64,000 nucleotides of DNA from Xanthostigma xanthostigma (taxonomy: Eukaryota > Arthropoda > Insecta > Raphidioptera > Raphidiidae), in assembly GCA_963575645.1 (NCBI GenBank), contig OY754468.1, positions 53,065,620 to 53,129,619 of the forward strand, written 5' to 3'. A program made the translations under genes and the position numbers. The notes below the pieces were generated by a model. That model was not told the origin of the DNA. It searched no databases and was given only the letters and a program-made list of their open reading frames with translations. Below, one piece after another: positions 20,761 to 64,000 of the stretch. Position 1 is the stretch's first letter. The number at the start of each line of letters is the position of its first letter.

Positions 20761-21790
20761 TTTATAGCGTGTATAATTGAACGTTAATTTCATTAAGGAG
20801 ATACAGGAGTGTACAGGATAAATCGTTCAGCTTTGTACCCTGAATTTAAAGAAAAACACTTTTCTAAAACTCGCCTTGCTCAATTGATAATTAATTTGTG
20901 AACAGTATTCTTTGCCTTAAACGGTTTTCAACGCTAATTAATATTTTTTAATAAATATCAATTGTAATTAAAAAGAAGTGAAAACCTTGAAAATTTATAA
21001 ATCTTTTGTGTCACCTTAAAGTATATTATATGTGTAATTTATTACGTGTTAAGTATGCATACTATAATTATATGGTATATGACATAATGACTCGTATTTA
21101 GAAGTCGATTCATAATGATAATTTACTATTCTTCATATTATTATGTTCGTTGATGAAAAATTGTGATAAAATTTTTGAAACGAGAGTCGATTTTTTCATA
21201 TGAAAAATCAAAGCTCAATATTCGATAGAACAAGTTGTAAGAAAAAGTGCTGATTTTGTTTTGTAAGGAAATGGTGCTAACATTTATTATCTAGTCAGGT
21301 TTAAATTTATACAGATTTGCAATTTATGTTCGAAACGAGACGAGCATTTTGCAACATTCAACTATGCACATTGCACAGCTATACAGAAATTAGTGCGGCG
21401 AGGCAAAATTTATCGCAAAATTTATCATTTCTAATTGCCCGCTGTTCTAATTGAAAGTATCGCTATTGAAAATTATCGTTGTATAAGTAAATTGCTTAAT
21501 GTTTTCGTTTTAAAAATTGTGTAGTCGATATATAGTTTTATTTTTAAATTTCAAGCTGGTTATTTTTTGTTTTGACTATAGCCGTCGTTCTGACACAGTA
21601 TAATCTCGATAAGATAGCTTCAAGGCAGGTTCAGATTATTGCAGTTGTACGAAAAACATTTAATGTCTTAAATAGAAATTATAATTTTAAATAGTGTTCT
21701 CGAATACCAACAGCGGGAGCGGCGACCGTAGAAAATGATTTCGATTTTATAGAGGACGAAACTTTCAGAAAAGACGACTCGGTTTTTTTT

Positions 21791-22018
21791 GACGTGATAA
21801 CGTCTTATAAATTGCAGCTGCACGCACGAAAAAGTGTAACGTTCCGCCTGACCCTGTGCGTGCAAGCGAGAGCGCAGTATAAGCGATAGAGAGTCGGTAA
21901 AAATATAGTTTGACAGCTACTAAAATTTAGGTTATGTATTATTAAATATGATATTCGAGCGGAATACGTTATCACGTAAAACTATCGTCCGTAAACCGAC
22001 TTTACAGACAACCAATTT
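21791..22018 (+). repeat. MITE family 1, short subtype (plus orientation)
   Basis: Starts GACGTGATAACGTC after a T run and ends CAACCAATTT. The interior has TTTGACAGCTACTAAAATTT and ATATTCGAGCGGAATACG, shared with the copies at 41622-41832 and 56698-56902. Confidence 0.85.
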
Positions 22019-22989
22019 TATACTATATTTTTTTCTTGATCGCTATTCGAAAAGCTCATACGGATCAACAAATTCACAAAAATTAAAAACTCTGCGTAAC
22101 TTACGAGCGGTAACTACATTAAGATTAATACCTCTATAAATTGGGAGCCGTTTTTTACGTCCGCCGCTTGGACTATACAAATGAAATGTTTATTTTTTAG
22201 TGAATTTTTCTTTAGGTGCTTATGATTGATGAAAACGCGGCTATAAATGTCTTATTTAGAAAATATAGCTGTGAATGAAGTAAAAAACTATTTTGTGTCA
22301 AATGATACTTTTAGAATCAAAATATATTATAAAACTATATAAGAATCTAATCATCATTGCACTCAAAAGGCAATTTATTAAAAATATTTACCTTGATAAA
22401 GCTGCGGTAAGCTACCAAATAAGCTTAATGTGTTTTTTTTTATTATTATTTATTTGAAGAGCAATATAAAAAATTGATTTTCCACTATTTCGTGTGAAAT
22501 TTCCAACTAAAAATATGTGAATTTTATTTCTGCGATTACGATCGCGAATTTTATAAATTTATTAAAATGAAATGTGATGCATCGAAAATTTATTTATAAA
22601 TTGTTGTTGTATATTTAATTTTTTTTTTTTTTTTTTGACTGACGAATTGAATTTAATTTTTAAATATTAGATTAATGTTGTTGCCAGCTTTTGTTTTAGT
22701 TTTTTTGTTTATTAAAAACTATCTTTGTTTATTTGCAATGTGTGTTTTTTAGTAGTGATTTTTTGATTTTTAATAATTTTAAACACAAACGATAAATATT
22801 TAAAAATAAAATTATCAGTCACTTTATATAGTTCAAAAAAATGAATACCGAATTGTTTTGGTAGCTATATTAGACGGGTAATGCCAAATTTATAACACCG
22901 AATCCAACCATATGTTTTATGTGGACGTGTAATTATTTTTTGTTATCCAAATATTATATTATACAGGCAATTCAGAATGTAATTTAGCT

Positions 22990-23558: not shown

Positions 23559-24585
23559 ACTTCCCGCTATTTTCGAGTTCAAAACGCTCAAAAATATATA
23601 AAATATAGCAAGAAGTTTATTTTTTAGCTCTTCGAGCTCAAAAAAAAAAACAATTTGTTACGAAATTTTCGTTCACTATATCTCATGAACAAATGAACCG
23701 ATTTTGATGCGACTTGCGGCAGTCGACTCAATTTTTTATCCTTAAAAAGTAATTTATTACAGAAAAATCGATCTCATAGGAATTTTACGAGCAATTTAAA
23801 AAAAACACTTTTTTACAAATTTTTCGTTCACGATATCTCGTGAACAAATGAGCCGATTTTGATGCGGTTTGCGTCGATCGACGCAGTTTTTTTAACTTAA
23901 AAAAGTAAATTATTACAAAAAAATCGATTTGATAAGAATTTTACGAGTAATTATAAAAAATTACTTTTTTCCTAATTTTTCGTTCACGTTATCTCATGAA
24001 CAAATGAACCAATTTTGATCTGGTTTGCGGCGATCGACGCAGTTTTTAACCTAAGAAAGTAAATTATTACAAAAAAATCGATTTGATAAGAATTTTACGA
24101 GTAATTATAAAAAATTACTTTTCTCCTAATTTTTCGTTCACGTTATCTCATGAACAAATGAACCAATTTTGATCTGGTTTGCGGCGATCGACGCAGTTTT
24201 TTTAGCCTAAAAAAGTAATTTATTACAAAAAAATCGATCTGATAACGATTTTAAGAATCATTTTAAAAAAACACTTTTTTACGATTTTTTCGTTCACGGT
24301 ATCTCGTGAACAAATGAACCGATTTTGATGCGGTTTGCGGAAATCAACGCAGTTTGTTAAGGAGAAGAGCTGATTAGATTTTGGAATTATTCGGTTTAGT
24401 AGTTTAGAAAATATTTTACAAAAACAAATTTTTAAAAATTTTTGAAACTTGTTTTTTTAAGATTTCTCAAAATTTTTTGGGCCGAATCGTTTCAAATTTT
24501 CAGGAAGTCTAAGTTCACCAAGATCACGTCAGATGCCGCAAACCGCGTTTCAGTCGGACACTCCGTTCAAAAGATATAAAAGGTT

Positions 24586-27424: not shown

Positions 27425-37848
<10,424 letters not shown>

Positions 37849-38596: not shown

Positions 38597-41500
38597 TCAA
38601 ATGAGTTCAATTAATTTCGACGCATATTTTGAATATCTTCGCTCGACCGTAGGCGGTATCATGTGAGGTGAGAAATCTAAATCGTCCGATCTGATTTCAC
38701 TCGAAGTAAATTTTTTGTGCAGAAATTTATACACGATATCTAATTTCGGACTGAATTGGAAACGGGGCGGCACATGCTCCAATCTACGAAAACAAAAGAA
38801 GATAACGTTTTGTAACTTTTACCGCACTCAATAAGCCACTTACCGATCATCTTCTTGCAGAGTACACGCGTCCAGAAATCCATTCACGCATTCTTTAATT
38901 TCTGGATCGCGTTTAGAAATGTTCGCCACCTTTTCTGCCCATACTTTCGCTTTGGTATTATAAAACTCGAGAGGGTACTTAATATGTTCCTTGAATGGGG
39001 CTTCCGAAATGGCTAAGCACTGAAACAATAATTTCCATTTTTTCCATATACATAATAATATAGGACCTATAGAGGAAACAAAACATTTTATTTTTACTAT
39101 CTGGCTCTCAATTTCAAGTCCGCTCATCTAGGCTTTAGCTTCGACAACAGTAATAAATTGAATAAAATATAAATTAAGTTAACCTATCTATTCTATTATA
39201 TTATATCCAATTAATTATTATATTATGTAGGTACTTATTATTATTATACTTACCTTCATATTTTTCATTTTTAGTTCAGTGTAAATAGCCTTAGTTGCTG
39301 CACACTGTTTTTTTAATAAAAAAAAAAAAGTAATAAATTGGCAAATAATGTAATATGAAAAGTTTGTCTCCCCCTACTCCACACAGGGCCAGCCTGGCTC
39401 AATGTTCCTTAGTGAATATTTGCCTCCGGAACACTTCACCCTGTCTGTTTTCAGTATTGATTCGTTCCTTGCGATTCAATAATAAATTGAAAGACCATTT
39501 ACCTTAAATCCATTGTATTCTGATGGATAACACGCTGCCAACTTAGGATTATTATTACTGTTATAACAACGTCTTGCCATTGCCACTAAACCGCATTTTT
39601 TCAAACTGTTCACAAACGCGTTGAACATCACCGTTGCACTCTGTGAAAAAAGTAATCCTAAGGTAATTTTCACACTACACGAGTGCGCTATCTCAGTCTG
39701 CACCTAGACTGGATCCGTATTTTTCCCGACCCGATGTCTCGGTGTTTGTTTTTCCTCCTGGAGAAATACGACTCCAGTGTAGGTGCAGCCTAAGATAAAT
39801 AAATGGTTAAAATCAGCATTTTATGCTGAACTTTATCTATTGATTTTTATTTTGTGTATAAAGACCTTTATTATTATTATTATTATTATTAAATAGGACG
39901 CAATTACCCAATCTACGTCGTTGGCAAACACTAAAGTAACAGAATCTCCAATAAAGTACGTGGAATTTATATCATCGCGTTTTACTGTAAACAGAATATC
40001 GAGGCATCGGGTGGTTTTCAGTTTATAAGCAGCTTTTTCTTCCTTGCTAAGTAATATCCGTGAACCGTCTGGATGCCTGAAAACAAACGCGTTGGTGATC
40101 CGAGGTAGGCTTGATTATATTTTAGAAATCGTGTGAACTGATTAACAATTAGTTAATCACCACTCGAACACTGACTTTCTTAAATCTTTATTGTTTGTTT
40201 CCACGTTTCGTAAAGAAATGTAAATTTGGTGTGGAGAGACAGACGATCATCTTTAGAGGTCACTAACGTCTGTGATGGGGTCGAAAATTTGCATCCAAGC
40301 TCAGATTCTGATTGATTTTGGGGCCACTCGAATCTGTGGTTTGGGAGGTGTATAATTATATCATTAACTCTCGATCTTTGGTATCCATAATAACGTTCAG
40401 GTATCGTTACCAGGGCTTTCGAGCAGATTCCATTGAAATTTTTCGAAAATAAAAATTATGGAAATTGGAAGCGATGCATGGCTCCCGTACCGATTTGTAA
40501 GTCCAAAAACAAACGATATAAATAACAGGTTTACATTTTACAATATTGAACGATTAAACTAAAAAATAGATATTGGATTAAAAAATATGTTACTAACCAA
40601 TGAACGTCCATCAATTCTCCTTGTGAATTTACTTGATTGCTCGGACCAGCTTTTGTATCATTTATTACTTCCTGTTTGACATCGTCTACCACTTCTCGCT
40701 TGATTTTCTTATGTGGAATTTCATCCGAAGGCACAAGTCTCGTTTTAACCTGTTTAAAATCGGCCGTTGCGAACGCATATTTTGGTTCGGCGTACGGCAA
40801 TGTCTAGCAGTAATAAAAAAAGCAATTATAAAAAAAGTAGCATATCGTAGCTCAGTTCTGAAATTTTAATCGGTGACTAATACACATAATAATATGGAAT
40901 AATCAGCTGAAATTAGATCTTCTTACATATCTGTATCCATTTACTTGAATCGATATATTTTTTCCTATTGTCATTTTCGTTCTCCAGGTTACTGGACCAC
41001 CGACAGCTGCTTTGTAACTTTCAATTAAGTGTTTTCCAGCTTCTATGGTTACGGCTGCTCCGGATGTCTGTTAACGTAGAAAAAAAATTGGTTGTCTGTA
41101 AAGTCGGTTTACGGACGATAGTTTTACGTGATAACGTCATAAAGAAACGTTGATGAACTCTCTGACGTCACGCGAGATGAGAGAGAAATGCGTACAAGCC
41201 GACGCTTGGGCCGATCGTGCCTCTCTATCGCTTATACCGCGCTCTCGCTTGCACGCTCAGGCTCAGGCGGAACGTGACACTTTTTCGTGCGTGCAGCCGG
41301 TGTTTCATCAATTTATAAGACGTTATCACGTCAAAAAAAAAAGGAATGTAGAGGTGTCGGTGGATAACAGATATTTTGACAGAAACAAAATTTACCTTCG
41401 TTATTAGTTCTATTAGTTTTGGACTGAACTCGGGTCGATCCTGAAGGCCTTGAAACATCGACTGCTGAAGTTCAGATACATTTCCTGTATACAGCGGTAC

Positions 41501-43158
41501 CGTGATATCGGGGCCTCTGCATAGGTACAAAACATAATTGAATAAAAGAGAAACAAAGCTAATATCGAAATATATGAAAGTTTTGATACAATTTTTGAAA
41601 ACTTTTACTTTGAGAGAAAAAAATTGGTTGTCTGTAAAGTCGGTTTACGGACGATAGTTTTACGTGATAACGTATTCCGTAATACATAACCTAAATTTTA
41701 GTAGCTGTCAAACTTGGGCCGAAGCATACTGCGCTCTCGCTTGCACGCACAGGGTCAGGCGGAACGTTAGGAGCGTTACACTTTTCGTGCGTGCAGCTGG
41801 TGTTTCATCAATTTATAAGACGTTATCACGTCAAAAAAAAAATAGTCGTATTTAATTTTTAGAAAATCTTTTTTTACAATTTTATTATAACGCAATTTTA
41901 TATACATATATGTAAATAAATTGATCGTTACGCTAAAACCCCATTTTTGTCATTATTACTCATGTATTTATTTTAATTACTGGACAGATGACAATTCAAG
42001 TCCAAGCTTTGAATTTCGCGCCAATTAACATGTAATATTTAGTATGTACTCACAAAATGTAAAGACGAACCGGATGCGGTGCGTATTTGTCAATACATTT
42101 CTTCAGAGCTGTGTTCGAGATTTCGGTATTCTTCAGGTCACTGAATAAGATAACTTGCACATTTTGTATAGACTTTTTCATATCACTGAATCAAAAATAC
42201 GTTAGGGTGTTACAATAAAGCAACAATATAAAACACTAACGGGGATTGTTTTTGCTGGCAAATGATATTTTTTTAAACGAGCTTACATATAATCAGCAAC
42301 ATATATTTTCAGCACGTGATAAAGTGCAAGCGAAACATCAGTTTTCTTATCCGAATTCTTTTTAGCATTTTCAACGAGTTCTGGCAAATTCTTTACTAAT
42401 TCAGCATCGGTACGACATCCTCTCTGTCCCACAGTAAATGGTTCTTGACCGTTAATTACAAATATACTGATTAAGTCACATGGCCGCCAGAAGAGCTGCA
42501 AATATTTTATTTGCTTTCGTTAATACGCAAAATTTCTTATAGTAATTATTTTTTTTCTGCAAAAGGGAAAGAAACCACTTACTCTACGCCGTAATATGGT
42601 GGAAATCGTTTCGACTGTTTTTTCTTGATTTGATGAAGGATCGATGAGGAAAAATAGACCGTCCTACGAACACAAAACGATAATTGGAAATTGTTAAGGG
42701 ACCTTCAAAATATTTTCTATATTACAAAACCCCAGTCGTTTGCAAGCTACGCCTATAAAAAATTCATAAAAGAACAGAGATACCTAAAAAGGTAGGCGTG
42801 GACGGAATATAAGGAATAAGGATTATGTTCACGGACCTTCGATCAAATTGGTTGAATCTCGATCGTGCTCGCTGATTACCTTAGCTGTTGAGAGTCAATC
42901 TACGATCTATATTTGAATCTCGGTCCGCTTGGTCGTCTGAACACCCCTTTACAAAGTACAGCCGATATCGCACTACGCCGATGATTGAGAAATTTCAACA
43001 TTGTAATTATTTATTTGAAAGGACGTGCGTGTTGTCAAATATCAACTTGTCAGTTGGCTATAGCTTCGGTATGAGACAGCATTTTGACTGTTACATAAAA
43101 TAATAGTCAATAATAAATAATATAACTTTATACTCACAGCTTTCGAAGGAGTCGCCAT
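38597..43158 (-). CDS. Ku80: Ku80 / XRCC5, DNA end-binding subunit of the Ku heterodimer
   Basis: Ku70-Ku80 encircles double-strand ends and starts non-homologous end joining. Minus-strand exons in order: 43158-43138, 42663-42583, 42495-42287, 42185-42054, 41516-41396, 41067-40927, 40803-40598, 40076-39908, 39640-39503, 39019-38844, 38783-38597; all phases fit and the product is 526 aa. The N-terminal vWA-like domain begins ATPSKADGLFFLIDPSSNQ. The beta-barrel segment has VTWRTKMTIGKNISI, aligning with the family motif around CRLTIGSNLSI. SATVMFNAFVNSLKKCGLVA and the following YPSEYNGFKCLAISEAPF match the arm-proximal core, and VPPRFQFSPKLDIVYKF matches the family's IPNPRFQ segment. The usual C-terminal globular domain and Ku-type acidic end motif are absent. 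Introns 4 and 5 each hold a MITE family 1 copy. Confidence 0.93.
39864..39891. repeat. (TTA)n microsatellite in Ku80 intron 8
   Basis: A TTA repeat following AAAGACCTTTATTATT. The same kind of tail closes the LINE fragment in iav, so this may mark the 3' end of another truncated retroelement. Confidence 0.7.
41086..41332 (-). repeat. MITE family 1, long subtype (Ku80 intron 5)
   Basis: Starts AATTGGTTGTCTGTAAAGTC after an A run and ends ACGTTATCACGTC before another A run. It is nearly the reverse complement of 15573-15822, including CTGACGTCACGCGAG and GCCGATCGTGCC. Confidence 0.9.
41622..41832 (-). repeat. MITE family 1, short subtype (Ku80 intron 4)
   Basis: Starts AATTGGTTGTCTG and ends ACGTTATCACGTC before an A run. 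The interior lacks part of the block present in other short copies, and GGAACGTTAGGAGCGTTACAC shows a small local duplication. Confidence 0.9.
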
Positions 43159-43442
43159 TGCAATATTTACTGAATTAAAGTGCGCGCAAAAAAACAAGTA
43201 CCGCCAAAGTGAAGAAAAAAAGCAAAATTTTATTATATATAAATTTTAATTAGAGAATTAATTAAAAATAAACAAAGCGTGTCCCTATTTACTAAATAAA
43301 ACCTTAAAATTTGTACCAAGTGTGATTTTAGGGAAGAATTAAAACATTTTTATTTTTGTACATGACAGTCATGTGAAGCCGTACCAGCTGTACTGTCAAA
43401 TTGTGAAATAACCTCTTCGGACAAAATACATTTTTTCGTAAA
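43159..43442. promoter_or_regulatory. Putative bidirectional promoter between Ku80 and ANKLE1
   Basis: Only 284 bp separate the divergent start codons (Ku80 ATG at 43158 minus, ANKLE1 ATG at 43443 plus). Transcription start sites and both 5' UTRs must fall here or upstream introns must exist. The region is AT-rich with no obvious TATA box in a standard position. A GTACATGACAGTCATGTGAAGC stretch near 43368 contains the short palindrome CATGACAGTCATG. Confidence 0.7.
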
Positions 43443-46400
43443 ATGTCTAAAAATGTATATTATCTCGCTTCATCAATAATCGACTGCATTGACGATAGGA
43501 ATTTAAGGCATGTATTTCCACATTTTATAGAATAAGCATAACGTTTACCGGTGGCATTATTTACATATTATGTACTTATAGGCATAATTACCTGAGCCAA
43601 GGCGCTTGATTTAAGATTAAGGCTTATTTTGAAATAGATTTGAGGACTTAATGTCGAGTGAAAACATGAAGTACGGTTACCTACTTATTTTACTCAGAAT
43701 TTACAACCTGTGTATAACATTTGTATTTGGTTACTGGCCAAAGATAAGGTCAAGATTCAGGCCAACACAAAGTTAAAAAAAAAAACATTCGTATAGATAG
43801 TTTTGAAAGCGTTGATTATTTTTTGAGATATTGTTATTTTAATAATAAACACGTGTTTTTGAGTATAAATCTGCCCGCAGCGACTAAAGCTCACCTAGCA
43901 GGAGAGGAAAAACTTAGTATGTTCATTTCAGACCTAAACTGATGGAATTAAAGCAAAGTCCAACTTTCCTCCAGTTAGGTAATTCCGAATAGAAATTTCT
44001 AAGCTACTGGGCTAGTACAATACCCTCACTATACGGTCGCTCATAATACCGATGCCGATGCGGCATTTCGCAATAACGGTCAAGAAAAGTTTTGTTATAT
44101 CTACTGCGCTTTTCGCTTTAAGGCCATTTTTTCCGGAACATCTAGGCATTACATTAAGAATTGATTTCTGTTTGCCCGCGTTTCGAAATTACAAATCAAA
44201 ATTGATTAGACTACTCTTTATAATTTATGTTACTCTCCTTCAAAAATCAAGAATAAAACATCCAAAATCTGAATTGTACAAAAAAAGACATAAATTATTA
44301 TTGTTTTTAGAGACCTGGAATTGTTATTGAAATATTATCATGCGGATCCGAACATAATTGTACCTGATTTAGAAATGAGCCCGTTTCATTACGCAGCCGG
44401 TAATGAATCGGAAGAGTTTGCGGAAAATGCAGTCAGGCTATTTATTTCGTACGGAGGAAATCCAAATGTTAGGTAATGTCTTACTTTTAATCTATACACT
44501 CTGCCAATATTAAGGCGCTGCGGAAATGGGAAAAACGGATTCCCTGTAGCGCTGTGCACATTTGGATCTGGGTTCCGTATGGAATTCGACCTTCTGAACC
44601 GGTTCAAAAAGATCTGAGCTCTTCGAGTATTGAAGCTAACCGATCCGACGAGTCAGAAAGAAGGAAATCGGCTCCCGCGGATATTCTATCGGAGTCTGAT
44701 CTTTAGACCGGTCTAGAATCGAGTCGCCGACCCCAAGACTGACGGGCCCATATGAAGCGTGTAATATTATGGCCATATATCCAATTATTTACTATCTAAT
44801 TCGAAATATGTTTGTATAAAAACAGATCTGAAGACGGTCTAACTCCAGTCCATGTAGCTGCAGCGTGGGGCAAAGCAAATATATTTCGTTTTTTATTACG
44901 TAATGGCGGCGATCCCCATTTAAAAGACGATGACAATAGAACAGCAATTGACTACGCCTTAGAAGAGGGACATGCCGATCTTGTCAAGGATATCGATTGT
45001 TCGAATTGTCCAGAATGTAATTATGTTGAGAAAACAAATTTTACAAATATACAGTTGAACGTTGATTATATTATGAAATATTTTAAACCGACCCTATCTC
45101 GAATATTCAAAAGAATCTCGAATTATACGGATTAGGTACAATCTATGACAAAGTCAACATTTACTCATTAAAATATTTGTCAATTACACAAAAACAATCG
45201 AATTGCTTGTATAACCCGGATTATTCCGCGCACTGGGTCGGTACATGCGGGGAGTGAAAGTTAAATTTAATTCCGGTAAAAAAGCAACTCCTAATAAAAC
45301 GGGCTCGGTCAATCCATGTTCAACTGTATGTTAGAACGTAACACAATTTATTTCTGCGAAACCCCCCAAAAAATCGATAATTATGTAAAATGAAGTATTA
45401 CTTTCTTTTAGCTGTGATATTTAAAACAAATGCGTCACCAATTGCCGATTATGCGCCTTTATTACAACTAGAATTAAACAAAGATAATTCAGAACACAAT
45501 TCCATTTGTCTTCCATCTTCTGACGAAATATCAAAAAATCAGTACGCACACGATTGGTGCAATAAATATAGTAAATCGGAAGAAACAAAAAGTGAAGGAT
45601 ATAGCGAGAAGTCGCCTGAAAACGTGAATGAAAAAAGAAAATCGCTTACGTTAAAAATTAGCGAAAGATTAAAAAATGCCAGAGAGTTATCGATTAGTAA
45701 AAATTTGTCTTCAGCAGATACTTATATAATTTGTAAATTTACATGTACCGATAAAACCACTTCTAAAAGAAGAGGATGTAATTCTGATACAGAAGTACAT
45801 CGTAAATCAGACATTAAAAATAAAACTGATAACGTAAGTAGTTGCTCAAAACAAAATTTTCGATCATTTTCCGAAAATAGCTTAACATTTCTTCAGTCGT
45901 CATGGGAAAAAAATCTATCATTGGAGATTTCCAACAATCCAAATAAAAATGCCGAAGAGAAATGTATTAGACGGGAAAGTGCAAGTTTTAAACATAATAT
46001 TTCCGAAAATTCCGAACACAGTATTTGCAAAGGCGGCTATTCAATTGTAAGCGGAGTACATCCACTGATTTTGTCACACAATTCTGACAAAAGTACTTTT
46101 GCATTGAGAGAGAATGAATATTTTCCATTCTGCAATCAAAATGAAATTAGCTGCAATTCGTTATTAACTTCAGACAGAAGTAGTCGAATCAGTTGTACCG
46201 ACTTAAATAACGCGTTTTTGATGACAAGCGATTGTTCTGAATTGAATTCCATTTCAGGAATTGGTATGATATTTCAGAACAATACAGATAGAAGCAGTAT
46301 TCAAAGTGATAACACCGTCGTTAGTTATTCGGCGGAATATGAATACGTAGATACAAAGGAGGGAATAAAATTCATTGAAAGGAGACTGCACACCCCGTTC

Positions 46401-48781
46401 AAGTTAGTATTTCATGAGCATTTTTAACAGACTTCAAAAAAAACAAAACTGTTATTCAATTCGTCCTGTACATAGTTTTTCCTTGTATGTTTAACCGATT
46501 TGAAAATTGTTGACACAGTTCTGTTCACAATGTTAACCGATTGGTACAGTGTAATTTTTTTTTCAATCGGCTCAGCCGTCTTCAACTTCGTTTAAAAAAG
46601 AGGGTTTGTTTTATATACGCTATTTGTTGACCGAATTTGAAATTTTATTGAAATCGGTTCAGCAGTTTAGCGATAAAATATTAAGGAAGAAGGCGGCTAA
46701 TGTACAAACCGCTTTTTTTTAAACTACTAAAATGTAAAGAATAAAAAAAAATCTGTAAATTGAGTCTGTCAAAAATGGTTACTAATAAAAGTCAGAGGTC
46801 TGCGCCAAATCAATGAAGTATGTGCGTGTATAATTTTTTTTTTTTGTAATTAAATTGGCGTCGACCTCATAAAACTTTATTATTGCATGCTCTTCAGTGG
46901 CCATTTTTGTTATTAACTGTCCGGTCCAGCCTCACCTTGTTGCAAATGAATAGCTTTCTTATCTGTTCGTCACATGTCAGGTGATTGGGCAACTAATAAA
47001 GAAGAGTTTTGAAAATATTTAATTTTTAGAACTGCTTGTGATACAGAATCTTTAACGGACATTCCGGTGGATGACGTGAATTATGACACCGATACATTGA
47101 GACTGGAATTAACTGAGCTGGGCGAACCACCTGGTCCAATAACGTCTACTACAAAACGAGTTTATTTAAAAAAATTAATAAGTCTTAGGAAGTATGTTCC
47201 GATTCCTGTACCAAAGAAAATATCGGTAGAACGCGGTAAATGTATAATATTGTTATTTTACAGATTGAATAATTTAAAACGAGACATGCAGACATACAAC
47301 ACCGGATAAATCCAATTTTGCCGATTACAATATGAAAAATTAACACCCATTTGCTATACGCTAAGAAAGTATTTTAGACACGCGATCTTTACGCCCTCTC
47401 GTGTTTTTTTTTTTTTAATTCTGGTTCAGTCAAAACCTTAGTGCCATATGTTATACTTGTATTTTAATAAAAATTAATTGTTGAATAAAATGGGGAAATA
47501 ACTATCAAATAGGAAGTGCTGTGTTGGTGATTGTAAAAATACACCAACTAAAAATCCAGAATTACAATTTCACCGTTTTCCTAGATTTTCTTATGAATTA
47601 GAGAGGAAACAGAAATGGATTGTAGCAGTAGTCGTCAAAGGTAATTACATTTTATTACATGAAAAATATCATAATTGTTATTTTGTTAACAAAAATAACA
47701 TATTTTAAAAAATCTTGAAATAAAAAATGTTTATCATTAAATTTATGTAGTTTTTTTACTGACATTTGCGTAAATATTTTTTTTTTATTATGTGTTTGTA
47801 AGTTTTAACTGAACCAGATTTTAATAAATCAAATACGAGATGGCGCAAAGGTCGCGTGTCATAGATACTTTCCTAGCGTATAGGACGTAACGGGTTTAGC
47901 TTCATTCACAGCTTGATAAAGTGTACCGAAATTAACTAGAATTGATACGTGACTCAAAAAAGAAAAAAGTGGATTTATCGGGTCTTGCATGTCTGCTCCT
48001 CAATTAGCAAATAAAGCCGCAGTTACGTCGGTTTTGTGTTGCCAAAGTTACACAAAACTATCAAAATGATGTATTTGTTATTAAATGTTAATTTTGACAT
48101 TCATTTATAGTTTTTTTAATGTTATTTTTCTCAGTGTATTCAATTGAACTCGAAAGAACGTTACGAAATCCAAGCTGGCACACAAATCTTACGCCTTATG
48201 TCGTTCTGGAACAGCAAATCTATGAACAGTTTTCAAAACCGGATCCAAAAAAAAGATGGAGAGAAGGCATTGCGAAGTCCTCATTCACTTATTTATTACT
48301 GGATCCGCGCCTTTCTGATAACTTACCTTTAAAAAATTCAACACTTTCGCAAGATGTCAATGGCTTTGAAAATATTTGGAAAATTTTCTTGTCTGCAATA
48401 TTTTACATAGGTAAAGGTAAAAGATCTCGGCCGTTTTCTCATTTGTATAAGACCATTTCAATTTGGAATAGAGGCTTGAGACGAACCAACGATAAGAAAA
48501 TGCAGACAATACTAGATATTTGGAAGGATAATTACGGAGTTGTTTGCTTACATATTTTTCAAAATGTTATACCGGTAGAAGCGTACACAAGAGAGGCAGC
48601 TATGATCGACGCTATCGGACTGAAAAATCTGAAAAATATTAAAAGCGGCGACTACTATGGAATCGCTTCGACTTGGCCGTGCAAGCAAAAACGAATGTTA
48701 GGAGTTTATCTTATTTATAAAGCGCTATTAATTTATTTAAATGAAGGGGAACGTCAGCTACGACCCGCCGATATAGATTAA
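43443..48781 (+). CDS. ANKLE1: ANKLE1: ankyrin repeat, LEM domain and GIY-YIG endonuclease
   Basis: Relatives (human ANKLE1, nematode LEM-3) cut branched DNA and chromatin bridges. Best model: 43443-43507, 44311-44472, 44826-45016, 45412-46402, 47030-47235, 48135-48781 (TAA), all phase-consistent, 753 aa. Residues about 22-140 are ankyrin repeats (LTPVHVAAAWGKAN). A Ser-rich linker of about 330 aa follows. LEM domain is about 490-520 (LRLELTELGEPPGPITSTTK). The GIY-YIG domain starts after PDPKKRWREG: GIY-like FTYLLL at 589-594, FYIGKGKRSRP with YIG at 629-631, and EAYTREA with the likely metal-binding Glu at 692. The end, ALLIYLNEGERQLRPADI, matches the vertebrate C-terminus. Intron 1 is an apparent GC-AG intron (TTAAG|GCATGT). 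The donor at 45017 is the only phase-compatible one I find after the ankyrins; reading on instead reaches TAG at 45133-45135. Confidence 0.93.
47354..47883 (+). mobile_element. P-element-like relic: about 75-bp inverted ends around a THAP-domain exon
   Basis: Ends CTATACGCTAAGAAAGTAT (47354 on) and the complement of ATACTTTCCTAGCGTATAG (to 47883) are imperfect inverted repeats extending about 75 bp, to CTGGTTCAG/CTGAACCAG. Between them 47511-47640 encodes KCCVGDCKN..LQFHRFPRF..KQKWIVAVVVK, the first half of a THAP zinc finger (C-x3-C, FHRFP, Trp), stopping at a GTAATT donor. THAP domains form the DNA-binding end of P-element transposases. An ATG at 47490 in the same frame is followed by a stop after two further codons (GGG AAA TAA). 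The second Cys-x2-His half and the catalytic core are missing, so it is dead or nonautonomous. Confidence 0.7.
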
Positions 48782-49625
48782 TTAATTATTGTTTACAAAT
48801 TGCTTTTAAATTAAGCGATAGCATCATTTTTATCTGTGATCGAAAATGGGTAACATTTTTTATGCTCGTTTGTACTATGCAAATTTTAATTCATTCATGA
48901 CATTGTACAACTGTGATAATATTCTTAATGTACATTATTTTATATTCATTTTTAATAAATCATATTTTTCAAACAAAACCTACGGTACCGTGTACATTGT
49001 ACATGCACATTGATTAAATGTATTAATTGTGCAATGAAAAGTTTAGAATAAAATTTCGAATAATTTAAAGCAAACTCGCAGACGATTAAGCGTTTGCTAT
49101 ACAATTAGAACATTTTGATGAATAAATTAGTGTCTAACAGCTTCAGACACTTTACTCTTCAGAGGAATTAAAACAACTGCAAAATGCATTGAATACGAGT
49201 GTTTGTGCAATTACCAATTGCGATTGTGCTTTGGCTATTAATTGTCTGTTCTTTGATTAAGTAGTCAAAGCGATTGTCGAATATGCTTGGGTGTTTGTGT
49301 GCCCCTTTAAAAATGAATGCGGTGGCAGGCGATAGTTTTTATTGTGAACGACATAAATAGTATAGGTCTTATTCTGCAATAACAGTGCGTCACAATCGCA
49401 GGTGTAACAGAAAGTGGTCCATTGATTCGCTTAACGCATGTAATGTAAAATTGAATCAGTGTAATAATAGGACGTGTTGAAATAGTGATAAGATTTATTA
49501 TTTTTTCAATATTTAACCAAATTAGAAACATACGTAGCTAATGTATGTAGCTATAAATTATGCAGACGATGTAAATTGCTTTTCCCAATTATAGTTTGTG
49601 AACGATCAAAATATTTTGATTAAAA
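48782..49625 (+). other. ANKLE1 3' end and spacer to DNAJC14
   Basis: AATAAA at 48954-48959 lies 173 bp after the ANKLE1 stop. The remaining sequence up to 49625 shows no exon or repeat I recognise and should include the DNAJC14 promoter and 5' UTR. Confidence 0.55.
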
Positions 49626-52600
49626 ATGAGTGAACCGTCGGAAAATCGTACGAATGTAACAGTGGATCAGATGATAGAACATATGACGGCCGATTTGCAT
49701 ACATCTGACGGCCAGTACATCCAGCTAGGTTTCACGCCACCGCAAACGCCGAACGAATCCAACTGGCACGATTATCCACAAAGCGCAGCACAGACGAGTG
49801 CCAATCCGTTTATGTCGCCGCCGCAGTCGTCGTTCAATATTCACTCTCAACACCCGGAATCGCGTATGAACTACGTCCCGATGGAACAGTGTGGCAATTT
49901 TCCAGCTCCGAACGCCGGCTACAATAGCTATATTATGCAGCAGGGCGGCCTGCATCAGAGTAGCTTGCAACAGAACTCGGTCTATTATCAGGACGTTCAT
50001 TCCAGTTTGATGAATAAACCTGTGTCGGAAATAGATCAACCGGAAATGGTACCGATGATCGATGTACGAGGTAACGGTGGTTATTTCTTGTATAAGAATA
50101 CGCACCAGTTCGTTCAGTCGAATCAAGATATTCCCGCCATGTGCAGATATCTCTATCCGGACAATAGAGAATACAACATGTTCCAGTCCCAGGACATTGA
50201 AAGTCTGCACCAGATGCAGCGGAATCAACTTTTACATCACAATCAGCAGTTGAATCTAACCGCCGATCCGAACGCCGTGTATCGTTTGCAAGATAAATCT
50301 TTGCAACGGCACCAAGACAACATGCTGTTGCATCAGGCGATGCAGCATCATAAATCAAAAACAGACAGTTTGCAAGATCGAAGAAATATACAGAATGCGC
50401 AGTGTGCGCCGAACTCGCAGCCGTCGCAGAACGGAACGCAACTCATTGAGAATTTAGTCGGCAATTGGGCACCGAACATGAGCGGAACGTATTCGCCCTT
50501 CGGAAGTACACATCAGAACAGCACGTCGCCCAATTCGAGTCAGTTTGATAAGAGTTGCGGCTCCGACTCGACCCGTTTGTCTCAAAACAGAAATGTTCCT
50601 ATCGATCTAGACTTTTCGGGTGCAAAAAGCGTCAATCGCAACGGCGTCAAAAAGCAACGAGCCGTCGCCGAAGTGAAACCGATGCGTCCCAGCTATTCGG
50701 ACGTTCTGGCAAAATCTGTGCCGCCGATGATTTCGAAAATTCCAAAGTCGGAACAGAAAGACGCCAAGAACAAATCGCTGGCTACAAAAAAAGGTAATAA
50801 AACAGACAAGTCGCAAAAATCCACTCAGAGTACAATCTTGAACCGACAGGTGTCCGGAAACGAGGACGCGAAAGACGTTCGCAACGATAAAAACAATTGC
50901 GTCAGTCCGCAGCATAAAGTCAAAGCTCCCGTCGGCGACTTGTCGAGAAAATGGTCGTCTTTAAATAATTTGCAAAACGACAGTACGTTTTCTAACAATG
51001 CCAACATCATCTTTGATATTTCCGATAACGATACCGACGAGAAGATCGTCGGCGATAAGAGTTCCGAAAAGAAAACCGTGACTCCGAAAAATAAGAAATC
51101 GGACGAAACGATAATTTTAAATAACAAGACGGAAAATGCACAGAACGTTAAAAATACATCCAATAATGTGACAAAGAGACCGATTCGAATTAACAACAAT
51201 TTAGGATCCGATTGGAACGACACCGACGGATCTAGCGATTTTGCCAAAACAAACAGCAAAAACAGCGAGAAGAATACGGCCAAGAGTGCAAAAAAAGGTA
51301 AAAGAAATAATCAGTTGTGGTCGCGTGTGCTTTTCTTTATTATTTTTTTTAACCAAATCAAATTATTGAATTGTAGCAAAAGAATCTAAATCGTCGTCGT
51401 CGTCGTCCTATCAGTCCAAAACGGCTGCACCGACTCACGGTGGAATAACCGATAAACCTCCGGCGCCGAATAAGAGAGGTCAGCGTGCTCGCAAAAAAGA
51501 AAGTCAAGGAAATTTAGGTAAGCGCAAATGATGTTTGAAGGATCGCTCTTTAAAACACACTTACAAAAGTCGTAAGAAAAAAGAAACCTCGAACTGTGAA
51601 ATTATTACATCCGACCAAACATTGTTTTAGGCGTGTTCCGTCGTTCTATAAAACAATACGTGCATCGTTGGTCAAGAATCGCTTTGAGTATTTTGCTTTG
51701 GTTCTTTCACTTGCTGTCCGATGTGGCCAGCCTCAGTCTTCAGTTGCTGAAAGATCTGTAAGTATATTATTTTTTTCTTTTATGTAAATTTACTGTCATT
51801 TTGCCATATATGGAACATTTTTTGTTTTACAAATGATTTTTCTCAAAAAGAAATAATAATGAAATAAATACTTTATTAAAGCAGTGTTTTTTATAAGCAT
51901 TTATGAAAATCGATTTTAGTAAAAAGTAACACTTACATTGAATTTATACACATTGTGGATAACATATTCGTTTGATTCACTTTATAGAATGCGCTTGAAA
52001 ATTATGCCGAGTCATATAAACATACATAATATTAATGAAATGTCATTTCTTATCTATATTACATATTGTTGCGTGCATAAATAAACATTTGTTAGTATTT
52101 CTTGGGTAGTTGTAACCGCATATAACTATGGGATGTGAGACTCTGTAAGAATACATTTTTTGAATTTTGTTTTATTAGCGCACAGAACATTAGAGCTGTA
52201 TAAAATATGTCAAAATATTAACTAGTTTCAGGGGATACTTTTAGCAGTGATATATCCGATGATGAATAATTAATGCGAGAGGAGACAATATATGTTTTCC
52301 AATCGTGTTATTTTATCTAAAAATCTTATAATGATATAATCTTTACTTTTTATTATAACTGGTAAATTAAAACCAATGTATCAAACCCCAATTTTAAAAC
52401 TCATCGATATATTGATACTTTTTTCCGATATATTGAATTCCGATATAAATATATTAAAAAATATTAATGAATTAAAAATACGATATTTTTAAAAATATCA
52501 ACATTCCTATAAAACATTGACAAAAATCTAAAGTGATAATCTATATTTAGAACAGTAGTTCTAAATAAGTGGAGAGTGAAACATGCTTGACGCACAGATA

Positions 52601-56489: not shown

Positions 56490-57414
56490 CTAATCAAGAA
56501 TGCCTTCTAAAAAACACAACGAATCGTCTTCCGCAATTACTGAATCTAAATCACGACGTTGCATAGTTTTCTTTTTACTTTTGAGTGTGTTCGAATACGC
56601 TTCTCGTGTTAATGATTCAATAAATAATTCCTAAAAAGATGAAAAACATTAATTCGGTCAATTAATTCACTGCATTGTCAAACTGTTAATAAAAAAAAAT
56701 TGGTTGTCTGTAAAGTCGGTTTACGGACGACAGTTTTACGTGATAACGTATTCCGCTCGAATATCATATTTAATAATACATTACCGCGCTCTCGCTTGCA
56801 CGCACAGGGTCAGGCGGAACGTTACACTTTTTCGTGCATGCAGCCGGTGTTTCATCTTTTTATATTGACGTGATTCATCAATTTATAAGACGTTATCACG
56901 TCAAAAAAAAAAAATTATTTGACGACGAGGTTGTCAATTCCGCTTAAGAAACTTTTTTAATTTGTCTGTGTTTATAAAACTTAGTTTGGAAACTTAATTT
57001 TTTTTTAAGATCACTGTATGACAAAACTTCGACAATTTTACAGAAACTAGACCATGTTTAAGTTTACTGTCAGTTCAAATTGCCCGATAATACACTGCAA
57101 TTCGTTATATAAATACTGTTTCAGTGAAAAATTACATACTGTAGCCTTTGTAACTAAAAAAACAGCTTCTTGACTAGCTAGTTGTAAGTCAGGATCCATC
57201 TTCATTATGTGTTTAATTCTAGCTAATGGTAAATGTACAAGTCGTTCCCTTTCAAGTGACACCGTCGACGTATCTTCTGTTTTATTTTCATTTTCTATTT
57301 GTTCGTCCGCTTCAAAGATTCGAACGTTTCATTTTGATCGTCGTTATTCATTACACTTTCAGAAAATTCGAGCCCTGTCTCAGGCATTTCAAGCTGCATA
57401 TTTTCGCCAGACAT
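56490..57414 (-). CDS. POLE4: POLE4: histone-fold subunit of DNA polymerase epsilon (apparent 1-nt frameshift)
   Basis: POLE4 pairs with POLE3 in a histone-fold dimer that helps the leading-strand polymerase hold DNA and recycle histones. Exon 1 is 57414-57140 and exon 2 is 56630-56490 (TAG). The histone fold reads LPLARIKHIMKMDPDLQLAS, then QEAVFLVTKAT joined in phase to ELFIESLTREAYSNTLKSKK, then MQRRDLDSVIAEDDSLCFLE, close to the vertebrate protein along its length. The N-terminal frame from the ATG (MSGENMQLEMPETGLEF) runs into a stop at 57298-57300. The histone-fold frame is open only with one extra base around 57315-57318, in the T run of TCTTTG. Exon 1 is 275 nt, one short of a multiple of three, as expected for a one-base loss. 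About 138 aa if in frame. A 5'-UTR intron acceptor (ATTTCAG) lies just upstream of the ATG. Confidence 0.9.
56698..56902 (-). repeat. MITE family 1, short subtype (POLE4 intron)
   Basis: Starts AATTGGTTGTCTG and ends ACGTTATCACGTC before an A run. It carries ATTCCGCTCGAATATC like the 21791-22018 copy and a small insertion (TTTTTATATTGACGTGATTC) near its end. Confidence 0.9.
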
Positions 57415-59084: not shown

Positions 59085-61755
59085 TTTTCGTCGGTTAAAA
59101 AGCCGCCGATTTGCGAAAACATCGAAAAACTTCAATTTTTTCAATTTTTTGGAAAATATAAAAGTGTCACGGATATGCCTGCATTTACTTGACCTTATAG
59201 AAAAAAGTGCGCTGAATCGAATGAGCACAAGCGCAGAGCTGTATCTCTTCTGGTTTCGAAGTTATGAGCGTTTAAAGTTTGAAAATTTCAAACTCGATTA
59301 TCTCCGAAACTAGACAAGATACAGAGCTGCGCCTGTGATCATTGGATTCAGCGTGTCAAAATCTACCAGGTAACATTAATATCGACACGTTCTGGAAGAA
59401 AATATAAAAGTGGCACGGATATGCCTGTATTTACTTGACGTTATAGAAAAAAGTGCGCTGAATCGAATGAGCACAAGCGCAGAGCTGTATCTCTTCTGGT
59501 TTCGAAGTTATGAGCATTTAAAGTTTGAAAATTTCAAACTCGCATATCTCCAAAACTAGACAAGCTACAGAGCTGCGCCTGTGCTCATTGGATTCAGCGA
59601 GTAAATATCTACCGGGTAACCTTAATATCGACCCGTTCTGGGAGACTTCGATTTTGAAAATTTTTACTGGGGGGGCCGACGATTATTTTTTCATTTTAAA
59701 TAAAGTGCAGTATCGACTGGAAATTTATATAATATATGGTTGAAAATGGCTTGGTCCTATGCAAAAAATCATGCTGAATCGATTGAGCCTATCTAGAAGT
59801 ATGTAGCTATTGTAGTTTTCAAGTTATAGCGTTTTTAATTTTTTCAAGAAAAATTTATAAAAACGCGTCTAACTCCTAAACCAAAGGAGATACAGAGTTG
59901 CGCTTGGTCTCATTTGATTCAGCGTGATTTTTTCCATAAGTACACATAATATTAACCGCATCGGAAGGCTCTTAGTGCCTCAAAAAGCCGCCGATTTGCG
60001 AAAACATCGAAAAACTTCAATTTTTTCAATTTTTTGGAAAATATAAAAGTGTCACGGATATGCCTGCATTTACTTGACCTTATAGAAAAAAGTGCGCTGA
60101 ATCGAATGAGCACAAGCGCAGAGCTGTATCTCTTCTGGTTTCGAAGTTATGAGCGTTTAAAGTTTGAAAATTTCAAACACGATTATCTCCGAAACTAGAC
60201 AAGATACAGAGCTGCGCCTGTGATCATTGGATTCAGCGTGTCAAAATCTACCAGGTAACATTAATATCGACACGTTCTGGAAGAAAATATAAAAGTGGTA
60301 CGGATATGCCTGTATTTACTTGACGTTATAGAAAAAAGTGCGCTGAATCGAATGAGCACAAGCGCAGAGCTGTATCTCTTCTGGTTTCGAAGTTATGAGC
60401 ATTTAAAGTTTGAAAATTTCAAACTCGCATATCTCCAAAACTAGACAAGCTACAGAGCTGCGCCTGTGCTCATTGGATTCAGCGAGTAAATATCTACCGG
60501 GTAACCTTAATATCGACCCGTTCTGGGAGACTTCGATTTTGAAAATTTTTACTGGGGGGGCCGACGATTATTTTTTCATTTTAAATAAAGTGCAGTATCG
60601 ACTGGAAATTTATATAATATATGGTTGAAAATGGCTTGGTCCTATGCAAAAAATCATGCTGAATCGATTGAGCCTATCTAGAAGTATGTAGCTATTGTAG
60701 TTTTCAAGTTATAGCGTTTTTAATTTTTTCAAGAAAAATTTATAAAAACGCGTCTAACTCCTAAACCAAAGGAGATACAGAGTTGCGCTTGGTCTCATTT
60801 GATTCAGCGTGATTTTTTCCATAAGTACACATAATATTAACCGCATCGGAAGGCTCTTAGTGCCTCAAAAAGCCGCCGATTTGCGAAAACATCGAAAAAC
60901 TTCAATTTTTTCAATTTTTTGGAAAATATAAAAGTGTCACGGATATGCCTGCATTTACTTGACCTTATAGAAAAAAGTGCGCTGAATCGAATGAGCACAA
61001 GCGCAGAGCTGTATCTCTTCTGGTTTCGAAGTTATGAGCGTTTAAAGTTTGAAAATTTCAAACACGATTATCTCCGAAACTAGACAAGATACAGAGCTGC
61101 GCCTGTGATCATTGGATTCAGCGTGTCAAAATCTACCAGGTAACATTAATATCGACACGTTCTGGAAGAAAATATAAAAGTGGCACGGATATGCCTGTAT
61201 TTACTTGACGTTATAGAAAAAAGTGCGCTGAATCGAATGAGCACAAGCGCAGAGCTGTATCTCTTCTGGTTTCGAAGTTATGAGCGTTTAAAGTTTGAAA
61301 ATTTCAAACTCGATTATCTCCGAAACTAGACAAGATACAGAGCTGCGCCTGTGATCATTGGATTCAGCGTGTCAAAATCTACCAGGTAACATTAATATCG
61401 ACACGTTCTGGAAGAAAATATAAAAGTGGCACGGATATGCCTGTATTTACTTGACGTTATAGAAAAAAGTGCGCTGAATCGAATGAGCACAAGCGCAGAG
61501 CTGTATCTCTTCTGGTTTCGAAGTTATGAGCGTTTAAAGTTTGAAAATTTCAAACTCGATTATCTCCGAAACTAGACAAGATACAGAGCTGCGCCTGTGA
61601 TCATTGGATTCAGCGTGTCAAAATCTACCAGGTAACATTAATATCGACACGTTCTGGAAGAAAATATAAAAGTGGCACGGATATGCCTGTATTTACTTGA
61701 CGTTATACATAGAAAAAAGTGCGCTGAATCGAATGAGCACAAGCGCAGAGCTGTA
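59085..61755 (+). repeat. 885-bp higher-order satellite with 246-bp subunits
   Basis: The block starting AGCCGCCGATTTGCG occurs at 59101, 59986 and 60871, giving a period of 885 bp with very high identity. Within each unit the phrase ATGAGCACAAGCGCAG recurs 246 bp apart (59221/59467, 60106/60352, 60991/61237). The last unit continues with extra 246-bp repeats (61483, and 61733 after a 4-bp insertion) instead of the 393-bp remainder. This is a higher-order satellite array, apparently edited by unequal exchange. Confidence 0.92.
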
Positions 61756-64000
61756 AAGGAGCTAAAAAAGGGAAAAACGGGCCAAAAAAGGGAAAAAACG
61801 GGCCAGAAATGGGAAAAAACGGGCCAAAAAAGGTAAAAAACGGGCCAAAAAAGGGAAAAAACGGGCCAAAAAAGGGAAAAAACGGGCCAAAAAAGGGAAA
61901 AAACGGGCCAAAAAAGGTAAAAAACGGGCCAAAAAAGGGAAAAAACGGGCCAAAAAAGGGAAAAAACGGGCCAAAAAAGGGAAAAAACGGGCCAAAAAAG
62001 GGAAAAAACGGGCCAAAAAAGGGAAAAAACGGGCCAAAAAAGGGAAAAAACGGGCCAAAAAAGGGAAAAAACGGGCCAAAAAAGGAAAAAACGGGCCAAA
62101 AAAGGGAAAAAAACGGGCCAAAAAAGGGAAAAAACGGGCCAAAAAAGGGAAAAAACGGGCCAAAAAAGGGAAAAAACGGGCCAAAAAGGGAAAAAACGGG
62201 CCAAAAAAGGTAAAAAACGGGCCAAAAAAGGGAAAAAACGGGCCAAAAAAGGGAAAAAACGGGCCAAAAAAGGGAAAAAACGGGCCAAAAAAGGTAAAAA
62301 ACGGGCCAAAAAGGGAAAAAACGGGCCAAAAAAGGGAAAAAACGGGCCAAAAAAGGGAAAAAACGGGCCAAAAAAGGGAAAAAACGGGCCAAAAAAGGGA
62401 AAAAACGGGCCAAAAAAGGGAAAAAACGGGCCAAAAAAGGGAAAAAACGGGCCAAAAAAGGGAAAAAAACGGGCCAAAAAAGGGAAAAAACGGGCCAAAA
62501 AAGGGAAAAAACGGGCCAAAAAAGGGAAAAAACGGGCCAAAAAAGGGAAAAAACGGGCCAAAAAAGGGAAAAAACGGGCCAAAAAAGGGAAAAAACGGGC
62601 CAAAAAAGGGAAAAAACGGGCCAAAAAAGGGAAAAAACGGGCCAAAAAAGGGAAAAAACGGGCCAAAAAAGGGAAAAAACGGGCCAAAAAAGGGAAAAAA
62701 CGGGCCAAAAAAGGGAAAAAACGGGCCAAAAAAAGGGAAAAAACGGGCCAAAAAAGGGAAAAAACGGGCCAAAAAAGGGAAAAAACGGGCCAAAAAAGGG
62801 AAAAAACGGGCCAAAAAAGGGAAAAAACGGGCCAAAAAAGGGAAAAAACGGGCCAAAAAAGGGAAAAAACGGGCCAAAAAAGGGAAAAAACGGGCCAAAA
62901 AAGGGAAAAAACGGGCCAAAAAAGGGAAAAAACGGGCCAAAAAAGGGAAAAAACGGGCCAAAAAAGGGAAAAAACGGGCCAAAAAAGGGAAAAAACGGGC
63001 CAAAAAAGGAAAAAAACGGGCCAAAAAAGGGAAAAAACGGGCCAAAAAAGGGAAAAAACGGGCCAAAAAAGGGAAAAAACGGGCCAAAAAAGGGAAAAAA
63101 CGGGCCAAAAAAGGGAAAAAACGGGCCAAAAAAGGGAAAAAACGGGCCAAAAAAGGGAAAAAACGGGCCAAAAAAGGGAAAAAACGGGCCAAAAAAGGGA
63201 AAAAACGGGCCAAAAAAGGGAAAAAACGGGCCAAAAAAGGGAAAAAACGGGCCAAAAAAGGGAAAAAACGGGCCAAAAAAGGGAAAAAACGGGCCAAAAA
63301 GGGAAAAAACGGGCCAAAAAAGGGAAAAAACGGGCCAAAAGGAAAGGGAAAAGGAAAACGGGCCAAAAAAGGGAAAAAACGGGCCAAAAAAGGGAAAAAA
63401 CGGGCCAAAAAAGGGAAAAAACGGGCCAAAAAAGGGAAAAAACGGGCCAAAAAAGGGAAAAAACGGGCCAAAAAAGGGAAAAAACGGGCCAAAAAAGGGA
63501 AAAAACGGGCCAAAAAGGGAAAAAACGGGCCAAAAAAGGGAAAAAACGGGCCAAAAAGGGAAAAAACGGGCCAAAAAAGGGAAAAAACGGGCCAAAAAAG
63601 GGAAAAAACGGGCCAAAAAAGGGAAAAAACGGGCCAAAAAAGGGAAAAAACGGGCCAAAAAAGGGAAAAAACGGGCCAAAAAAGGGAAAAAACGGGCCAA
63701 AAAAGGGAAAAAACGGGCCAAAAAAGGGAAAAAACGGGCCAAAAAAGGGAAAAAACGGGCCAAAAAAGGGAAAAAACGGGCCAAAAAAGGGAAAAAACGG
63801 CCAAAAAAGGGAAAAAACGGGCCAAAAAAGGGAAAAAACGGGCCAAAAAAGGGAAAAAACGGGCCAAAAAAGGGAAAAAACGGGCCAAAAAAGGGAAAAA
63901 ACGGGCCAAAAAAGGGAAAAAACGGGCCAAAAAAGGGAAAAAACGGGCCAAAAAAGGGAAAAAACGGGCCAAAAGAAAAGGGCAAAAGGAAAACGGGCCA
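61756..64000 (+). repeat. 21-bp minisatellite array running off the window
   Basis: Consensus unit is A6 G3 A6 C G3 C2 (21 bp), present about 105 times. Variants include G3 to GGT (several, near the left side), A5 or A7 runs, and single irregular units near 63340 and 63970. The array starts inside a 246-bp satellite copy, right after AGAGCTGTAAAGGAG. Because 21 is divisible by three, long stop-free frames exist on both strands; they are artefacts of the repeat. Confidence 0.97.

Follow-up and report, generated by a model that had tools for sequence, protein, structure and literature searches.

Ku80 and ANKLE1 as a close divergent gene pair near an assembled chromosome end of Xanthostigma xanthostigma

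Two predicted and apparently intact DNA-repair genes, Ku80 (XRCC5-like) and ANKLE1, stand head to head with their start codons exactly 284 bp apart in a 64,000-nucleotide stretch of the Xanthostigma xanthostigma genome (Raphidioptera, Raphidiidae; assembly GCA_963575645.1, contig OY754468.1, forward-strand positions 53,065,620 to 53,129,619). This stretch is referred to as the window, and all coordinates are given within it. The pair is likely a fresh example of a known divergent arrangement, with a shared promoter region likely and functional coupling unproven. We consider it highly probable that this is an ordinary divergent gene pair, presumably loosely co-expressed from one open-chromatin interval.

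Gene models and their spacing

Ku80 is encoded on the minus strand and ANKLE1 on the plus strand, so the two neighbours are transcribed away from each other. The Ku80 ATG occupies 43158–43156 and the ANKLE1 ATG 43443–43445. In our splice models, the space between them (43159–43442) is a candidate shared promoter with 27.8% GC and 7 CpG; its length of 284 bp is a distance from start codon to start codon, not between transcription start sites. An initial annotation of this DNA had described the head-to-head pair with this same spacing, which proved exact to the base, and its bounds of 43138–43507 correspond to the gap plus the first coding exon of each gene. Both names it gave are right, as judged from Pfam domains and, for Ku80, from relatives in the PDB. 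The exons of both genes were picked by hand, guided by reading frames, splice signals, and the known sequences of each family, and are predicted models. GT donors occur in 15 of the 16 introns (11 in Ku80 and five in ANKLE1), the sole exception being ANKLE1 intron 1. A 421-bp stretch spanning the gap (43100–43520) has a single match in the organism's own 623-Mb genome, namely itself, and no match at E ≤1e-8 when the window is compared with itself. Scans of the window returned no tRNA and no Rfam family at the gathering score.

The Ku80 gene (38597–43158, minus strand) consists of 12 coding exons that form one open frame of 540 amino acids, from the ATG at 43158 to a stop codon ending at 38597. 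Exon 1 contributes only seven codons (43138–43158) before a GT donor. Exons 1–6 lie at 43158–43138, 42663–42583, 42495–42287, 42185–42054, 41516–41396, and 41067–40927, and exons 7–12 at 40803–40598, 40076–39917, 39640–39503, 39304–39254, 39019–38844, and 38783–38597. The least certain is exon 10 (51 nt), where the protein is not recognisably Ku80-like by eye. Pfam identifies the Ku core β-barrel (PF02735, E = 1e-18, 68.4 bits against a cut-off of 25); the match to the Ku_N α/β domain falls below its cut-off (E = 0.022, 14.9 bits against 20.6), and Pfam finds no Ku C-terminal or DNA-PKcs-binding domain in the 540-residue model. XRCC5/KU80 accounts for seven of the nine sequences matched in the PDB (best E = 1.6e-8), the other two bearing unrelated names, and Ku70 is absent from these matches at E up to 1. 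Judged by its sequence, the minus-strand gene is Ku80/XRCC5, with Ku80 rather than Ku70 as its closer relative. Two of its introns carry copies (41080–41340 and 41617–41853) of a mobile-element-like repeat with ends near TTTTACGTGATAACGT / ACGTTATCACGTCAAA, further copies of which are found at about 15568–15827, 21770–22019, 56690–56912, and 1–140.

ANKLE1 (43443–48781, plus strand) is modeled with six coding exons at 43443–43507, 44311–44472, 44826–45016, 45412–46402, 47030–47235, and 48135–48781, encoding 753 amino acids. Exon 1 (43443–43507) is followed by a predicted GC–AG intron, whose donor (AAG/GCATGT, at 43507/43508) is the only one of the five GT or GC candidates before the first in-frame stop to be in phase with the chosen exon-2 acceptor. 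Pfam places ankyrin repeats (Ank_2, 4e-21), a LEM domain (2.5e-11), and a GIY-YIG nuclease domain (LEM-3_GIY-YIG, 3.2e-60) in this order along the protein. The nuclease domain resides in exon 6 (48135–48781), which contains putative counterparts of all six active-site residues reported for human ANKLE1, namely Y453, Y486, H498, K519, E551, and N565 (PMC10287932). Based on motif and spacing, the corresponding residues in the model are Y591, Y629, H641, K659 or K660, E692, and N706. The E-to-N and Y-to-H distances are the same as in the human protein and the remaining distances are off by 2 to 5 residues, in a comparison by motif and spacing rather than by a tool-made alignment. Where two glutamates were candidates, the one lying 14 residues ahead of the asparagine was taken. 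Together, domain order and motifs identify the plus-strand gene as a predicted member of the ANKLE1/LEM-3 family. A pattern search for relatives of its C-terminus, in collections without other insect genomes, confirmed none of 60 stretches in genome contigs and neither of two in viral contigs. The locus is of use mainly as a precise predicted ANKLE1 gene model beside Ku80.

Intron 5 of ANKLE1 (47236–48134) harbors a THAP-domain fragment at 47502–47705 (PF05485, 1.5e-6). Imperfect inverted repeats within 47288–47436 and 47802–47996 bracket this fragment, pointing to the remnant of a DNA transposon within ANKLE1.

The start-codon gap and its neighborhood

A shared or back-to-back promoter within the 284 bp is likely because there is no other intergenic room between the two first coding exons. 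Both transcripts would begin inside the gap at back-to-back core promoters served by one nucleosome-depleted region, and the two promoters would thereby share open chromatin in an AT-rich stretch, of at most 284 bp, that is not a CpG island. The ANKLE1 transcript perhaps starts no more than ~70 bp from its ATG, given two upstream ATGs at −81 and −72. The first opens a short frame, MTVM-stop, at 43362 and the second is an ATG followed directly by a stop at 43371 (together 43362–43376, plus strand); both fall within any mRNA begun further upstream. On the Ku80 side, upstream ATGs are found at −189, −205, −214, and −273. These positions make short leaders inside the gap plausible, proving nothing.

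The sequence of the gap was scanned at this one locus with 20 consensus patterns, whose counts were compared with 2000 dinucleotide shuffles. A CpG-island bidirectional promoter of the vertebrate type is ruled out by the base composition (27.8% GC and 7 CpG in 284 bp). A damage-response promoter built from known motifs was likewise rejected, as E2F, p53 half-site, NRF1, CRE, AP-1, and DRE patterns have zero occurrences in the gap. The scan also gave zero matches in the gap to CCAAT, GAGA, the Inr form TCAKTY, and Ohler motifs 1, 6, and 7. A TATATATAAAT run at 43234–43244 is TATA-like read either way and was rejected as significant: TATAAA occurs at chance (1 seen versus 0.95 expected), and the five TATAWAW matches (0.89 expected) all come from this single run counted on both strands. 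DPE-like RGWYVT is also at chance (2 versus 1.75 expected), and the initiator-like word TCAGT occurs once (0.28 expected), 11–15 bp before the Ku80 ATG.

One block of the gap (43360–43398) combines a ACATGACAGTCATGT palindrome with a CAGCTGTA E-box and an inverted pair of TGACAG sites. The E-box (0.02 expected) sits between the two TGACAG sites (0.04 expected) at 43363–43398. We treat the block as a lead and not as evidence, because the TGACAG pattern was chosen after the sequence had been seen; the 15-bp palindrome was rejected as significant, being equalled or exceeded in 180 of the 2000 shuffles. The excesses beyond TATAWAW among the 20 patterns were not used as evidence. They comprise TGACAG (2 versus 0.04), CAGCTSWW (1 versus 0.02), TCATGTG (1 versus 0.01), and CANNTG (6 versus 1.67, with three sites counted on both strands).

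The genes flanking the pair are similarly close. Ku80 is tail to tail with iav, the TRPV channel gene inactive, at a stop-to-stop distance of 748 bp. The identity of iav follows from a PDB match to Inactive (7.1e-37), with Nanchung also among the PDB relatives; its C-terminal exon (37627–37845) matches residues 948–979 of the Inactive chain (2.6e-6). Inactive and Nanchung are insect proteins, in keeping with the insect origin of this DNA. On the other side is a DNAJC14-like gene with DnaJ and Jiv90 domains, whose presumed ATG, in its first open reading frame (ORF), lies 844 bp past the ANKLE1 stop; the ORF at 49620–51389, which has no Pfam match, probably represents the first part of this gene. 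All three intergenic intervals at the locus, taken between coding ends, are thus shorter than 1 kb. Because the neighborhood is itself compact, as the distances of 748 and 844 bp indicate, closeness is not special to Ku80 and ANKLE1.

Close divergent pairs are also common in flies. According to a Drosophila melanogaster survey (PMC2670823), 31.6% of genes belong to divergent pairs with start sites <1 kb apart, and 59.0% of the pairs have <400 bp between start sites, mostly 200–400 bp. The same source gives a median GC of 37% for these promoters, with TATA boxes rarer than expected, and finds that, among 1,770 pairs with data, 58.2% show a positive and 22.8% a negative correlation in one or more datasets. 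It also reports that fully conserved divergent pairs are fewer in insects than pairs for which both orthologs are present, and cites earlier studies in which many human DNA-repair genes sit in divergent pairs. No bidirectional-promoter survey of insects beyond Drosophila was found in the open-licence literature. The Ku80–ANKLE1 pair itself is the subject of no title or abstract start among the matches listed from that literature, two of the listings covering 20 of 33 and 15 of 41 papers.

With close divergent pairs so frequent among insects, and at so compact a locus, the layout by itself says little in favor of functional coupling. The initial annotation had read the arrangement as a shared promoter that would couple end protection with a structure-selective nuclease. 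Its identities, orientation, and spacing hold, and a shared or back-to-back promoter is likely; the coupling is conjectural, and the gap has none of the scanned motifs expected of a damage or cell-cycle promoter. The pairing most likely follows a general trend for housekeeping and repair genes to be arranged divergently, here in a locally compact stretch.

Several points weigh against reading the locus as an ordinary divergent pair. The base rate used is that of the fly, whose genome is probably gene-denser than a 623-Mb genome, and a gap of 284 bp could be rarer in the latter. The enrichment of TGACAG and CANNTG could reflect a specific regulator. On the ANKLE1 side, an acceptor-like AG at 43368 scores 3.6 with a weight matrix built from the 16 true acceptors of the two genes, which is inside the range of their leave-one-out scores (−1.3 to 9.9) and ranks it among the top 12% of the window's 5716 scored AGs.

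As this AG scores like true acceptors, an upstream noncoding ANKLE1 exon is possible, and at least one transcript would then start beyond the gap, so that the 284 bp would not be a shared control region and the two promoters would be separate. We regard this arrangement as distinctly improbable. Any upstream exon on the plus strand that lay beyond the gap would necessarily overlap Ku80 on the opposite strand, and the AG preceding the Ku80 ATG scores −2.9, under all 16 true acceptors and mid-range among AGs (48% have at least this score).

Selection for a repair module is a different alternative, in which a single bidirectional promoter would coordinate Ku80 with ANKLE1, for example in dividing cells or upon damage, and the pair would be conserved among insects. 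In its favor, both proteins act in genome maintenance, human and worm ANKLE1/LEM-3 being described as cutting branched DNA and processing bridges (PMC7610144, PMC11975286). Moreover, irradiated lem-3 worms are reported to share developmental defects with irradiated mutants of non-homologous end joining, including cku-80 (PMC3285610). The two inverted TGACAG sites with their CAGCTGTA E-box and the frequency of DNA-repair genes in human divergent pairs (PMC2670823) would also fit. However, the TGACAG motif was selected post hoc, the scanned damage and cell-cycle motifs are absent from the gap, and Ankle1 knockout mice are described as lacking an overt phenotype (PMC11975286). In addition, the single open-licence paper retrieved for XRCC5 and ANKLE1 jointly concerns, judged by its listing, mouse implantation. 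Overall, a selected module appears unlikely, and we favor an ordinary divergent pair with loose co-expression. Were the pair shown to be conserved and co-expressed, insects would appear to link the amount of a protein that binds break ends to the amount of a nuclease that acts as a last resort on DNA bridges.

Terminal arrays at the contig ends

The final 64 kb of the chromosome-size contig C5 (53,129,619 bases), one of 13 large contigs of 18 to 84 Mb, make up the window, which terminates in a 21-bp tandem array (AAAAAAGGGAAAAAACGGGCC) at 61764–64000, the last 26 bp of which are degenerate. This is the only array in the window with units of 18–75 bp and at least 20 copies. The 13 large contigs have 26 ends, and 6 kb was read at every one of them (loci L003–L015 and L031–L043). 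Of these ends, 16 finish in arrays of 21, 22, 24, or 42-bp units, mostly 21-bp, that stop no more than 26 bp short of the final base; such arrays are missing at the other ten. The units are purine-rich (0.71 to 0.91), with the purine-rich strand running toward the end in all 16 cases, and unit variants differ from end to end. The canonical (TTAGG)2 was found in none of the 26 stretches. Among the left ends of 15 small contigs, one (C24) has an array reaching the end, 13 have no array, and the remaining one (C21) has a different 31-bp array located away from the end.

Repeats of 246 bp (59152–61755) adjoin the terminal array in the window. Counted from the best three tandem-repeat rows per end, the 246-bp unit recurs at no fewer than five other ends of large contigs (C4 right, C7 both, C8 left, and C9 right), so it looks subtelomeric. 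Farther inside the window, a 156-bp tandem repeat is present in 4.6 copies (23644–24360).

The purine-rich terminal arrays look like an unusual, candidate non-canonical type of telomere with end-specific units. Insect telomere motifs measure 1–11 nt, or 173–381 bp in Diptera, according to a 2025 review (PMC12036569), and several wasp lineages are reported to have lost the telomere motif (PMC8977481). A search of the organism's own genome for the telomerase RNA-binding domain (PF12009) gave four matches, all below the cut-off (E = 0.19 to 0.81), in a search that had no positive control, given zero matches in 14 control genomes. No reverse transcriptase was recognised by eye near one of these matches (L045) among same-strand ORFs of at least 45 amino acids in a 9.9-kb stretch, where introns or divergence could hide a gene. 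Telomerase may be missing from this genome, may have diverged, or may be encoded by a gene that introns interrupt.

The Ku80–ANKLE1 gap lies ~20.6 kb from the assembled chromosome end, and any link between the gap and the telomere is speculation. One could imagine Ku80 and ANKLE1 as one co-transcribed unit for end protection and bridge cutting, ~20 kb from an end with non-TTAGG telomere-like repeats of ~21 bp, where the state of the telomere could in turn influence how much end binder is made, via a telomere position effect; we consider this extremely improbable. As it stands, the locus adds one more close divergent pair, and its chromosome-end context is the more unusual observation.

Comparison with known systems

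The predicted Ku80 resembles the Ku80/XRCC5 family in its Ku β-barrel and in having Ku80/XRCC5 proteins as its closest solved structures. It differs in a weak match to the N-terminal domain and in that Pfam detects neither a Ku C-terminal nor a DNA-PKcs-binding domain. The predicted ANKLE1 shares with the LEM-3/ANKLE1 family of branched-DNA nucleases the ankyrin repeats, the LEM domain, the C-terminal GIY-YIG domain, and putative counterparts of the six active-site residues. Unlike this family, the model contains a long middle exon 4 (991 nt) with no domain match above the cut-off and a THAP-type transposon remnant inside intron 5.

As a pair, the two genes compare best with the divergent pairs of insects described by Yang and Yu in 2009 (PMC2670823). 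That class is set by transcription start sites, whereas the spacing here is known from start codons. In common with the pairs described there, Ku80 and ANKLE1 occupy opposite strands with start codons <1 kb apart in AT-rich sequence, their intervening stretch has no CpG island and no clear TATA dependence, and the ATG-to-ATG gap falls in the commonest class of start-site spacing (200–400 bp).

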